Assembly (NCBI GenBank): GCA_902760645.1
Contig: CACWHC010000019.1
Coordinates: forward strand, 1-33,610
Direction of reading: 5' to 3'
Origin: an uncultured bacterium
GTDB lineage: Bacteria; Cyanobacteriota; Vampirovibrionia; Gastranaerophilales; Gastranaerophilaceae
Length of the DNA: 33,610 nucleotides
The position numbers and the translations under genes were made by a program. The notes beneath the pieces were generated by a model that worked only from the letters and a program-made list of their open reading frames with translations, searched no databases and was not told where the DNA came from. The stretch's first letter is position 1; each line of letters begins with the position of its first letter. Positions 1 to 29,179 of the stretch are shown piece after piece.

Positions 1-41
1 AGAAAAGAATTGGGATAAGTTTTCACACAAAAATAAAAATA

Positions 42-75
42 TTAAAAGGGACTAGTTTATACTAGTCCCTTTTAA
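42..75 (-). terminator. Perfect terminator-like hairpin next to the outermost tRNA-Arg tail copy
   Basis: A 15-bp perfect inverted repeat (42-56 with 61-75) encloses the 4-nt loop TTAT. Read on the minus strand it follows the tRNA-Arg tail copy at 76-93, just as the hairpin at 461-496 follows the real tRNA-Arg. On the minus strand the stem ends in TTAA rather than a long U run, so terminator activity is likely but not certain. Confidence 0.5.
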
Positions 76-93
76 TTTACGCCCGGCGCGATT
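76..93 (-). repeat. Outer copy of the tRNA-Arg 3' end (18 bp)
   Basis: The 18 bp tttacgcccggcgcgatt are identical to 496-513, which cover the acceptor 3' strand, the 3' half of the T-stem and part of the T-loop of the intact tRNA-Arg plus two flanking bases. No other part of a tRNA is present. The copy ends in the T-loop, where the tRNA would continue with CGAAC but the sequence changes to GTCTTGG. It is the third copy of this tail within 440 bp. Confidence 0.9.
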
Positions 94-264
94 GTCTTGG
101 ATTATTGGCAGTTCAACCGTTTACATTCGTTTTGTTTTGTTTGCACAAAACAGTCACTCATTACAACGGTTTCACTAGGACGGCGTTCCGTTCACTGACG
201 TTCACTCCAGCCTTGCCAAAATCCGCCGAACGCACAAATGCGGTTCTCAACGCTGACAAACATA
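94..264. repeat. tRNA-tail-associated structured element, copy A
   Basis: This spacer lies between two copies of the tRNA-Arg tail. It starts with GTCTTGGATTATT and has GCGGTTCTCAAC near its other end (239-254), matching the GGTTCTCATC of copies B and D. Internal complementarity includes AACCGTT (115-121) with AACGGTT (165-171), and a CGCA/TGCG hairpin just before GGTTCTCA. It encodes nothing convincing: the reading frame through it is an incidental opening. Its period with the flanking tail copy is 225 bp. Confidence 0.7.
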
Positions 265-303
265 AAATTAGAGGAGATAGGATTAACCTATCTCCTCTAA
301 TTT
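265..303 (-). terminator. Perfect hairpin next to the middle tRNA-Arg tail copy
   Basis: A 17-bp perfect stem (265-281 with 287-303) has the 5-nt loop ATTAA. On the minus strand it directly follows the duplicated tRNA tail and overlaps its last bases. Its sequence differs from the hairpins at 42-75 and 461-496, but all three are perfect and sit at the same place relative to a tRNA tail. It looks like an intrinsic terminator carried with the repeat unit. Confidence 0.55.
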
Positions 304-318
304 ACGCCCGGCGCGATT
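301..318 (-). repeat. Middle copy of the tRNA-Arg 3' end (18 bp)
   Basis: This is an exact copy of 496-513 and 76-93. It again stops at the same T-loop position, GATT, and is followed by GTCTTGAC instead of CGAAC. It defines a 195-bp period with the real tRNA-Arg end. Confidence 0.9.
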
Positions 319-460
319 GTCTTGACCTGTTCGCATTAAACGTGTCTGCGTGTTTTGCTTCAAAGAACTTACGTTCTTTTCGCAAAAGCACTCCGCTCAC
401 AGGTCGCTCGAACACGCAAGTGCTTACGCACTTTGCGGTTCTCATCTGGCTCAAACCCAA
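319..460. repeat. tRNA-tail-associated structured element, copy B
   Basis: The first 31 bases (319-349) match copy D near tRNA-Ser (28926-28956) at 30 positions, and 388-413 matches 29004-29029 at 24 of 26. An outer stem pairs GACCTGT (324-330) with ACAGGTC (399-405). A nested hairpin pairs AAAGAAC with GTTCTTT, and a third pairs GCAAGTGC with GCACTTTGC around the loop TTAC. It ends in GCGGTTCTCATC. Copy D keeps the same stems with different bases, which points to a conserved RNA or DNA structure rather than a protein. Confidence 0.75.
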
Positions 461-496
461 ATAAAAAGAGATAGGTTTATACCTATCTCTTTTTAT
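461..496 (-). terminator. Intrinsic terminator of the tRNA-Arg transcript
   Basis: A 16-bp perfect stem (461-476 with 481-496) with the 4-nt loop TTAT lies immediately after the tRNA-Arg 3' end on the minus strand. The downstream arm there is AGAGATAGG-like and runs into a U-rich stretch, as expected for a Rho-independent terminator. Confidence 0.75.
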
Positions 497-497
497 T

Positions 498-571
498 TAC
501 GCCCGGCGCGATTCGAACGCGCGACCCTCTGCTTAGAAGGCAGATGCTCTATCCAGCTGAGCTACGGACGC
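498..571 (-). tRNA. tRNA-Arg (anticodon TCT)
   Basis: On the minus strand the 74-nt gene folds as a complete cloverleaf. The acceptor is GCGTCCG with CGGGCGT (one G-U at the end and one inside), the D-stem is GCTC/GAGC, the anticodon stem is TCTGC/GCAGA around the loop CTTCTAA, and the T-stem is GCGCG/CGCGC around TTCGAAT. The discriminator is A, and CCA is not encoded. The anticodon TCT reads AGA/AGG. The gene lies downstream of a T-arm-less tRNA remnant on the same strand and is followed by a terminator. Its last 18 bp are repeated twice further downstream. Confidence 0.95.
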
Positions 572-583
572 ATATCTGTTGTT

Positions 584-716
584 GTCTTGGATTTGCTCCA
601 CGCTCACAGAGTTTCGTTTTCGGCACTTCGTGCCTGTCAACTCAATCTGTTCGCTATCCGGCATGAATGCCGTCCGCAAATCCGCTATTTAATTGTCAAT
701 TTTAAGCTTTTTCTGT
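584..716. repeat. tRNA-tail-associated structured element, copy C
   Basis: This 133-bp spacer lies between tRNA-Arg and the truncated tRNA. It starts with GTCTTGGATT, like copy A. An outer stem pairs GGATTTGC (589-596) with GCAAATCC (676-683), and internal hairpins are GGCAC/GTGCC and GGCAT/ATGCC. Unlike the other copies, no recognisable tRNA tail precedes it, and the tRNA on its other side has lost the T-arm. It seems to be a rearranged member of the same family. Confidence 0.6.
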
Positions 717-771
717 CGCCCTGACCTACCGCTTATAAGGCGGTTGCTCTATCCAGCTGAGCTACCAGGGC
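717..771 (-). pseudogene. T-arm-less tRNA remnant with anticodon TAT (Ile-like)
   Basis: On the minus strand the sequence has a 5' acceptor GCCCTGG, a good D-arm (GCTC/GAGC), and an anticodon arm ACCGC/GCGGT around the loop CTTATAA. It then goes from AGGT directly into CAGGGC, which can pair with the 5' GCCCTG. The whole T-arm, roughly 18 nt, is missing, leaving 55 nt. Anticodon TAT would read the Ile codon AUA. Most bacteria read AUA with a lysidine-modified CAT tRNA, so a TAT anticodon is uncommon; it could also be one base changed from a CAT loop. The T-arm loss suggests a non-functional remnant. A functional T-armless tRNA is not known for bacteria. Confidence 0.7.
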
Positions 772-28401: not shown

Positions 28402-28887
28402 TACATAATATATGTTACAAACGCTATTTATCCAATTTTGTCATCCCGAACTTGTTTCGGGATCTGACCCATGATAAAATCTGATTATGGTCTACACAAA
28501 ACAATACTATGTATATATAATTACAAACTATCACCAAACAACATTTTATATTGGAATAACTAATAATTTAGAACAAAGAATATGGCAACATAAAAATAAA
28601 ACCTCTGATGGTTTTTCTTCTAAGTATAATTTAAACCGCTTAGTATATTATGAATGTTTTGATGATGTTAATTACGCAATAGCAAGGGAAAAACAGTTGA
28701 AAAACTGGCATAAACAATGGAAATTAAACCTCATAAGAGATATGAATCCGGATTTTAAGGATTTAAGTACTGATATTGGTTTAGAACCTGAAACAAAAGA
28801 AATCACATAACTCCACTGTGGTCAGATCCCGAAACAAGTTCGGGATGACAAAATTGGATAAATAGCGTTTGTAACATATATTATGTA
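28402..28887. mobile_element. GIY-YIG element with perfect 68-bp inverted repeats
   Basis: Positions 28402-28469 and 28820-28887 are perfect inverted repeats of 68 bp, compared base by base. They frame a 324-bp GIY-YIG gene, 486 bp in all. Each arm contains a smaller palindrome, ATCCCGAACTTGTTTCGGGAT-like, the REP-like core. No clear target duplication flanks the element. The perfect identity argues for a recent insertion or active repair. It is inserted between the operon terminator and the tRNA-Ser locus. Confidence 0.9.
28487..28810 (+). CDS. Small GIY-YIG nuclease-like protein
   Basis: The 107-residue protein is a single GIY-YIG domain: YYVYIITN (the GIY strand, Tyr8-Tyr10), FYIGITNN (the YIG strand, 21-23), then Arg31, His35 and the catalytic Glu68 in AREKQLKNW. 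It belongs to the short UPF0213/YhbQ-like family. Related short proteins occur next to CATCCCGAAC-like palindromes in many bacteria (my memory of the family, not checked here). It has no visible ribosome site and lies entirely between the inverted repeats. Its likely role is to cleave DNA at or near the repeats, which is inference. A DNA-repair role is an alternative. Confidence 0.85.
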   Translation: MVYTKQYYVYIITNYHQTTFYIGITNNLEQRIWQHKNKTSDGFSSKYNLNRLVYYECFDDVNYAIAREKQLKNWHKQWKLNLIRDMNPDFKDLSTDIGLEPETKEIT

Positions 28888-28903: not shown

Positions 28904-28925
28904 AAAAAACGGAGAAGAAGGGATT
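28904..28925 (-). repeat. Copy of the tRNA-Ser 3' end (22 bp)
   Basis: These 22 bp, of which the first 6 are A, are identical to 29087-29108: the acceptor 3' strand and T-arm 3' half of the tRNA-Ser plus flanking A. The copy ends at GGGATT, where the tRNA continues with CGAAC, and switches to GTCTTGAC. The break point is the same as at tRNA-Arg. The period is 183 bp. Confidence 0.92.
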
Positions 28926-29086
28926 GTCTTGACTTGTTCGCATTAAACGTGTCTGCAGTTTTTCTTTTTCGGAAATTATATTTCCTGCAAAGAAAAAGCT
29001 TCCGCACTCTGCTCACAAGTCGCTCGAACCTGACAAGGCTTCCGCCTTGTGGTTCTCATCCCATTTGTGCAGCCGATTTAAACATG
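28926..29086. repeat. tRNA-tail-associated structured element, copy D
   Basis: This spacer lies between the tRNA-Ser tail copies. It has the same opening 31 bases as copy B (30 identical) and the same GCACTCxGCTCACxxGTCGC block at 29004. Stem GACTTGT (28931-28937) with ACAAGTC (29015-29021) differs from copy B by a compensatory C-G to T-A change. The hairpin ACAAGGC/GCCTTGT and the inner pair GGAAAT/ATTTCC replace different sequences at the same places in copy B. It ends GTGGTTCTCATCC. Position, stems and ends are conserved, so the folded form is likely what is selected. Confidence 0.78.
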
Positions 29087-29092
29087 AAAAAA

Positions 29093-29179
29093 CGGAGAAG
29101 AAGGGATTCGAACCCTTGGTGGAGTTTCCCCCACAACGACTTTCGAGGTCGTCACCTTAAACCGCTCGGACACTTCTCC
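29093..29179 (-). tRNA. tRNA-Ser (anticodon CGA)
   Basis: The minus-strand gene of 87 nt has the acceptor GGAGAAG with CTTCTCC and discriminator G. Its D-arm and anticodon stem ACGAC/GTCGT surround the loop CTCGAAA (anticodon CGA, reading UCG). The long variable arm typical of Ser is present (GTGGGGGAAACTCCAC-like), and the T-arm is intact. CCA is not encoded. A run of six T follows on the minus strand, a weak terminator. Its 3' end is duplicated at 28904-28925. Confidence 0.96.

Follow-up and report, generated by a model that had tools for sequence, protein, structure and literature searches.

Two tRNA-linked repeats behind tRNA-Arg and one behind tRNA-Ser in a Gastranaerophilaceae genome: probable structured cassettes with cores exchanged between tRNA loci

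Background

Why should the end of a tRNA gene be repeated in tandem directly behind the intact gene? This question is raised by the start of a stretch of 33,610 nucleotides (termed here the window; contig CACWHC010000019.1 of assembly GCA_902760645.1) from an uncultured member of the Gastranaerophilaceae, in which the last 18 bp of a tRNA-Arg gene occur three times. The favoured answer, which is considered rather probable, is that two tRNA-linked repeats (TLRs) stand in an array behind tRNA-Arg and a further TLR behind tRNA-Ser, and that these are structured, array-forming cassettes whose cores have been exchanged between tRNA loci. The source genome (labelled G000) comprises 1.96 Mb in 29 contigs and is 99.76% complete.

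TLRs have been known from Escherichia coli since 1978, those at tyrT/rtT being the oldest; for strain K-12, PMC8144298 (citing Egan and Landy 1978 and Rudd 1999) gives 22 genes at ten loci. There the last 18-19 bp of a TLR are described as identical to those with which the upstream tRNA or rRNA ends, with one to five TLRs per locus; TLRs are said to have been without known function before the 5S-linked ones, and an early functional claim for tyrT to have been retracted. A first-pass annotation of the window linked the repeated tails to E. coli tyrT/rtT, a link that is apt, given that the anatomy is the same; it also took rtT for an isolated case, which the count just cited contradicts.

The array behind tRNA-Arg

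The sequence TTTACGCCCGGCGCGATT, the last 18 bp of tRNA-Arg, has exactly three copies in the window, at positions 76, 301 and 496 (i.e., with spacings of 225 and 195 bp), and none was found on the opposite strand of the window. Read along the minus strand, tRNA-Arg (TCT) at 572-497 is followed first by a terminator-like hairpin and then, twice over, by a structured spacer with CAAGAC at its end, a tail and a hairpin. Each tail is adjoined by its own perfect inverted repeat (459-476/481-498, 265-281/287-303 and 41-56/61-76), and the tails break off at a fixed point within the T-loop, namely between tRNA positions 57 and 58; in all these respects the first-pass annotation was borne out.

The host of the array is an intact tRNA-Arg (TCT; 497..572, on the minus strand like every other feature of the array), called both by ARAGORN and by Rfam, whose own A58-N73 tail lies at 498-513. 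Directly behind it stands trailer 1 (459..498), a perfect, terminator-like hairpin (inverted repeat I1). Unit 1 contains, in order, an inverted copy of the host T-arm (435..447; sense AGATGAGAACCGC) with GA at its centre, which is a reading of the sequence whose match to the host was tested for the class as a whole; a direct copy of the 5' half of the T-stem (409..417; sense GCGTGTTCG, as compared with GCGCGTTCG in the host); a type-A core with the sense end CAAGAC (319..408; a member of alignment A1, with a match at 303-420 to R1, the type-A core model); and tail copy 2 (303..318), which is A58-N73 of tRNA-Arg and lies in the exact 18-bp match at 301-318. After a second terminator-like hairpin (trailer 2, 265..303; inverted repeat I3), unit 2 continues with what reads as the remnant of an inverted T-arm (240..253; sense GCGTTGAGAACCGC), a direct T-stem 5' half copy (227..235; sense GTGCGTTCG), a core of a different family, type C, with the same ends (94..226; ..AATCCAAGAC; no R1 match listed), and tail copy 3 (78..93; exact 18-bp match at 76-93). 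A third terminator-like hairpin (trailer 3, 41..76; inverted repeat I4) ends the array as far as the contig reaches: the contig starts at window position 1, and the array may have more units beyond that end. To judge from the list of open reading frames (ORFs), repeat lengths of 195 and 225 bp leave no room for an integrase gene in either of the two units.

Faulty assembly, which the first-pass annotation had named as a way in which tandem copies might arise, does not account for the array, because the units differ (in their spacers and in their hairpins, the hairpin blocks having 70% and 81% identity to the reference copy) and because other genomes and complete E. coli chromosomes hold such arrays. 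A chance origin of the tails was also considered, and is ruled out by the three exact 18-bp copies together with the genome-wide pattern.

The motif GTCTTG, which had been reported beside each tail, follows the first two (at 94 and 319) and does not follow the third, which lies inside the intact tRNA-Arg (497-572); further occurrences in the window are at 584 and 28926. As a general signature it did not hold up: it marks the right-hand end of certain core families. What marks the units in general is an inverted host T-arm together with a tail from A58.

Occurrence and common plan in the source genome

The first-pass annotation proposed a family, a proposal that would have failed had such tails been confined to this tRNA-Arg. 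They are not: for 16 of the 42 matches of the source genome to the tRNA model RF00005, the tRNA's own last 16 nt are copied within 1 kb downstream (at most two mismatches), and this is a lower bound, because some tRNAs lie near contig ends. In 9 of these 16 the tail copy comes directly after CAAGAC, and in the others mostly after relatives of it, such as CGATAC or CAAGATA. The transfer-messenger RNA (tmRNA) gene also hosts units (locus L085).

These units, which are about 120-220 bp long, share a common plan, which is new: an intact tRNA, a trailer with a terminator, the host T-arm copied in inverted form (usually with GA at its centre), the 5' half of its T-stem copied in direct form, a structured core, and a tail that starts at A58. 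The inverted arm is imperfect at its centre; one example reads GGGAT-GA-GAACC in place of the exact inverse, GGGAT-TC-GAACC. Between the inverted arm and the direct half, which carries TTCG, lies a short hairpin loop. Because the direct half precedes the core and the tail from A58 follows it, the core lies between the two halves of a T-arm. A terminator-like hairpin is present in the trailer of 42 of 55 Gastranaerophilales units, as compared with none of 55 shuffled controls (the first 60 nt being shuffled). The source genome has three core families with shared ends, and one of its arrays (contig C16) alternates core types in the order B, A, B.

At tRNA-His (L050; G000:C3:1-6500) two units lie about 800 bp apart with an apparent ORF between them, and a diverged tail copy precedes the second unit, as if the array had taken up a gene.

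Host matching of the frame and exchange of cores

Does the frame of a unit (i.e., its inverted arm and direct half) follow the tRNA behind which it stands? This was assessed for 55 units at loci from the source genome and its relatives, each candidate host being given its best placement. The inverted arm scored on average 10.76 out of 15 against its own host and 9.16 against other hosts, and the direct half 7.15 out of 9 and 6.32, respectively; in neither case did any of 5000 host permutations reach the observed value. This better match to the own host is new as well. The 55 units come from a set of 113 rows, a ratio that is not a prevalence, because rows had been dropped beforehand if no T-loop motif could be recognised in them or if fewer than 150 nt lay downstream, and because loci retrieved on account of an R1 match are present in excess. 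(A further test, in which the inverted arm is divided into two halves and position 59, is biased, in that the own host's sequence had been used to choose the placement.) Of the 41 units in which the inverted arm is clear, 29 have GA at its centre.

The cores behave differently. For 41 of 46 units the nearest relative of the core stands at a different tRNA (for 38 of them in another genome, for 3 within the same one), and for 5 at the same tRNA of another genome. These 46 are those of the 55 units that have CGTT within the last 105 nt; pairs sharing both tRNA and genome were skipped, and two loci (L080 and L081) carry no genome label. Judged by these comparisons, the core families are independent of tRNA identity, which is likewise new. 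Because the frame tracks its host while the cores do not, it is taken here that cores move, or are converted, among tRNA loci, with the frame fitted to each host.

Structure of the cores

An alignment of 13 type-A cores supports a consensus fold of 26 pairs, 19 of which show double-sided changes, with 92.8% of cells paired. The covariation score is 0.541, as compared with 0.177 in shuffled alignments (none of 500 reaches the observed value) and with 0.07-0.13 (maximum 0.132) when the fold is slid along the alignment; since the fold was derived from the same 13 sequences, it is favoured over its slid versions. On this covariation, the type-A core is a conserved structure.

The frame likewise appears able to fold. 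Minimum-energy folding gives a closing stem between inverted arm and tail copy (termed P0) in the units of E. coli serX and tyrV, in a Sphingobacterium tmRNA unit, in a Verrucomicrobiaceae unit and in the tRNA-Ser unit of the window; a hairpin between inverted arm and direct half (P1) is present in all of these except the Verrucomicrobiaceae unit.

A conserved core bears on the notion that the units are decoys against integrases that target T-arms, the inverted arm binding the integrase and, having an altered centre, being unable to recombine. The inverted arm does keep the T-stem dyad, and its centre is changed to GA in the 29 of 41 scored units given above; however, a decoy leaves both the core and its covariation unexplained, and this explanation is given very little credence.

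Spread across genomes and phyla

R1 matches occur in 37 of the 57 genomes searched, including the source genome, which has 20; no genome has more than 25. At orthologous tRNA-Lys loci of the genus, three sites are empty (L158, L160 and L161), and other species have units of type A or type B. In one genome (G025, loci L090-L094), near-identical type-A-like copies occur outside tRNA genes, one of them within a type-B core; several of these dispersed cores seem, by a reading of their flanks, to stand behind pilin-like genes.

A search that is independent of the core used the frame pattern GGGATGAGAACCC N3-33 GGGTTCGA to scan one genome per species. At least 117 stretches matched, as compared with a rough chance expectation of about 4. 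Among the matches listed (101 in 80 loci), 86 have a same-strand tRNA or tmRNA less than 1.2 kb upstream, and in 51 the host tail from A58 follows; since only a GA centre and a GGG stem can match the pattern, the frequency of GA cannot be read from it. The record titles among these listed matches include Bacteroidota, Verrucomicrobia, Beta-, Gamma- and Deltaproteobacteria, Chlamydiae, Chlorobi, Gemmatimonadetes, Planctomycetes, Lentisphaeria, Kiritimatiellae, Neomarinimicrobiota, Aminicenantes, Saccharibacteria, Gracilibacteria and Uhrbacteria. To go by this pattern, the plan is present behind tRNA or tmRNA genes in more than ten phyla, a finding that is also new; in the literature searched, which did not cover Rudd 1999, the plan was not found described beyond E. 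coli and its relatives. The share of tRNA genes with a unit is lower than in the source genome in Sphingobacterium (6 of 45 tRNA contexts) and Akkermansiaceae (1 of 39), two genomes that were picked because the pattern matched them and in whose counts three contexts were too short and rows without a T-loop motif were dropped.

In Stenotrophomonas, the Rfam family sX4 (a Proteobacterial small RNA, sRNA) overlaps tRNA-Ser (L208:7654-7792).

Comparison with the TLRs of Escherichia coli

The plan recurs in the E. coli tyrT/tyrV repeats, which read GGGGAAGGAT-GA-GAAGCTTCGA, AAGGTTCGA, core, and AATCCTTCCCCCACCACCA from A58. In strain MG1655, serX is followed by three units of 181 bp and lysV by one; for 24 other tRNAs in seven MG1655 regions no tail copy was found apart from full neighbouring tRNAs. 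The window units resemble these TLRs in several ways: they have an inverted T-arm with a GA centre, a direct half and an A58 tail, as at tyrT and serX; they lie directly downstream of a tRNA gene (two at tRNA-Arg and one at tRNA-Ser); their tails of 18 bp (tRNA-Arg) and 22 bp (tRNA-Ser) compare with the 18-19 bp of TLRs; and, as at rrnB, a terminator lies between gene and unit. They differ in that their core sequences appear to be unlike those of E. coli (R1 does not match the E. coli loci L185 and L314), that several core families are mixed within an array, that a larger share of tRNA genes serves as hosts (the 16 of 42 reported above) and that tmRNA is a host as well.

The Rfam model of RtT RNA (RF00391) scores above its cut-off at E. 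coli tyrT, at an Enterobacter tRNA-Ser and at the tRNA-Ser of a metagenome-assembled Verrucomicrobia genome, but at its gathering cut-off has no match in the window, in the source genome or in the genome G012. The window units, so far as their sequences can be compared, thus have the anatomy that defines TLRs but are not recognised by the RtT sequence model.

E. coli strains also show how the number of units varies, a further new observation: serX is followed by 3 units in MG1655, by 2 in LAU-OXA and by none in TUM18780 and JL05. What a filled allele has beyond an empty one is a set of whole units, each running from A58 in one tail to A58 in the following tail. Three other strains have a truncated serX unit only, and in one strain a gene for an IS5-family transposase splits the first unit. 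The serX core is present in 3331 of 5426 E. coli genomes (median 2 and maximum 11 places); it has no match in 50,697 phage records and matches 16 plasmid records, several of which are chromosome-sized. In the K-12 reference annotation (L314; NC_000913.3 1096829-1097652) none of the three serX units is listed, an omission with consequences for annotation; other E. coli records annotate an RtT sRNA behind serX.

These length changes are what would be expected of mere recombination debris, that is, of tandem duplications of a tRNA 3' end and neighbouring DNA that have neither function nor mobility: whole-unit changes at serX and near-identical tandem units at several loci both fit unequal recombination. 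Duplication alone, however, gives neither core families shared by unrelated hosts, nor a host-matched inverted arm, nor the same plan in many phyla, nor covarying core pairs. Plain debris is very unlikely, because core pairs covary and host-matched segments track the host. Of the options between which the first-pass annotation had not chosen (tiny satellites, an RNA family or debris), the last has thereby nearly dropped out, and satellite and RNA family remain mixed.

A possible but less probable explanation than the favoured one is that the units serve above all as genes for sRNAs, or as regulators acting in cis on tRNA operons, and are retained for the sake of their RNA, the tail being a 3'-end processing signal and any mobility incidental. 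In E. coli, the three 5S-linked sRNAs RrA, RrB and RrF are reported to be made by read-through between two terminators, to be processed and to bind Hfq and CsrA, and recognition of the repeated 3' end by RNase E has been suggested for 5S-linked units, as for RrB (PMC8144298). Rfam classes RtT as Cis-reg, the order terminator, unit, tail, terminator in the window is that at rrnB, and covarying helices are kept in the cores. Yet 26 of the 42 tRNA matches of the source genome have no unit, the presence of units varies between strains and species, and the cores differ between hosts and between orthologues; moreover, because units stand behind a terminator-like hairpin (42 of the 55 given above), only weak transcription from the tRNA promoter is expected. 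The retraction of the early claim for tyrT, as recounted in that source, also counts against this explanation. To see the units as selfish cassettes and to see them as sRNA genes are not mutually exclusive: a mobile, structured unit that comes to lie between two terminators can turn into a gene for an sRNA.

At E. coli rrnB (L418) a second copy of the 5S tail AACTGCCAGGCAT lies between terminators, and the unit also contains GAGTAGGA, a sequence similar to that of 5S before the break; a host lacking a T-arm may also be covered by the plan.

Comparison with mobile elements and search for a mobiliser

Integrons form arrays in which short cassettes are stacked behind a fixed site that stays intact, the attC site of a cassette being folded and unpaired at its centre. 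TLR units are similarly stacked and short, similarly leave their site intact and have an imperfect inverted repeat that can fold; unlike integron cassettes, they have no attC boxes and carry no gene, and their site, a tRNA T-arm, is not the same in every host. No integron integrase was found either, no search having been aimed at one. Integrative elements that target tRNA genes, on the other hand, cross over within the T-loop and restore the tRNA by a duplicated 3' tail. The window units share with these the T-loop break and the duplicated tail, but lack an integrase, and their inverted arm and direct half are unexpected for att sites.

Four protein families were sought as possible mobilisers. 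The source genome has no match to Y1 transposase (PF01797, sought as the sign of an element derived from REP or IS200-IS605; present in 18 of the 57 genomes), to IS110 transposase (PF01548; in 5 of 57, and absent from the element-rich genomes G012, G025, G020 and G006) or to reverse transcriptase (PF00078, RVT_1; in 26 of 57). As drivers these three are unsupported, being absent from a genome with 20 R1 matches. Tyrosine recombinase (PF00589), by contrast, has 3 matches in the source genome and is present in 57 of 57 genomes, all types being counted together.

The IS110 result bears on a further explanation, which is that the units are RNA-guided mini-elements of the IS110 (bridge RNA) kind, whose direct half and inverted arm would guide to the left and right parts of the T-loop target. 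A direct left and an inverted right target half, both fitted to the host and placed around a 57/58 break, are formally guide-like. However, neither the order of the two segments in TLR units nor their centre dinucleotide agrees with the bridge RNA scheme, and PF01548 is absent from the source genome and from 52 of the 57 genomes in all; this explanation is highly improbable.

Proposed mechanism

The interpretation favoured here, TLRs as structured cassettes whose cores are exchanged, would work as follows. In single-stranded form a unit would fold such that the inverted T-arm pairs both with the tail copy (P0) and with the direct half (P1), so that the core hairpin would hang in the T-loop of a mimic of a tRNA arm; such a mimic is evident from sequence and minimum-energy folds in several cases, not in every unit. 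Cores would be exchanged between tRNA loci while the frame matches each host, for which there is the statistical support described above. New units may enter at the T-loop (between positions 57 and 58) or arise when one tRNA locus converts another; the tRNA would be left whole because its tail is duplicated. Arrays would afterwards gain or lose whole units, as at E. coli serX, and read-through past the first terminator might turn a unit into an sRNA, as PMC8144298 describes for one E. coli unit.

A broader proposal, which is speculative and considered rather unlikely as it stands, is that units of the TLR type form a single class of foldable, mobile cassettes found throughout the bacteria, for which the T-arms of tRNA and tmRNA genes serve as attachment site, much as attI does in integrons, and that a host recombinase (perhaps Xer-type) could exchange the single-stranded mimic of the host's T-arm with the real one. 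A tyrosine recombinase is the candidate because only this family, of the four tested, is in every genome searched; a host recombinase is possible for the same reason, namely that tyrosine recombinases are in all 57 genomes, though their presence is no evidence for it. If the proposal is true, tRNA genes act as cassette arrays. If the plan spans many phyla, with an inverted T-arm matched to the host and with cores moving between hosts, the nature of TLRs can be tested by means of the search rule, of E. coli strains with 3, 2 or 0 units and of a fold that can be broken; it would also bear on the question why T-arms are preferred for insertion.

Several results weigh against the favoured interpretation. 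No gain of a unit was caught, and the empty serX sites can be explained as losses by recombination between repeats. The minimum-energy folds of both tRNA-Arg units of the window lack P0; 14 of the 55 units have no inverted arm at 10/15 or better; and 15 of the 101 listed frame-pattern matches have no upstream tRNA call, some being cut by locus ends. The test of core exchange rests on one or a few loci per genome. Three of the four families sought as mobilisers are absent from the source genome, as noted above, and the RtT model has no match there, so that common ancestry with rtT is not shown.

Other tRNA loci in the window

The second host in the window is a tRNA-Ser (CGA; 29093..29179, minus strand; ARAGORN), behind which lies one unit on the same strand. 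This comprises an inverted T-arm (29051..29063; sense TGGGATGAGAACC), a direct T-stem 5' half copy (29025..29032; sense CAGGTTCG), a type-A core (28926..29024) and a tail copy of 22 bp (28904..28925); the R1 match to its core (28910-29036, E 4.3e-27) is to a sequence that belongs to the training set of R1.

Upstream of tRNA-Arg, and also on the minus strand, a type-B core (584..686) stands behind a damaged tRNA and has no tail copy behind it. The tRNA remnant (717..771; RF00005, 38.7 bits; not called by ARAGORN) lacks the T-arm. Such a remnant followed by a type-B core possibly represents a host destroyed by, or after, an insertion. In the window as a whole, Rfam reports tRNA alone at gathering cut-offs and nothing credible below them.

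Adjoining the tRNA-Ser tail copy is an element (28402-28887) in which a 68-bp perfect inverted repeat (28402-28469 / 28820-28887) surrounds an ORF of 107 aa of the GIY-YIG type (28487-28810); it looks like a small mobile GIY-YIG element.
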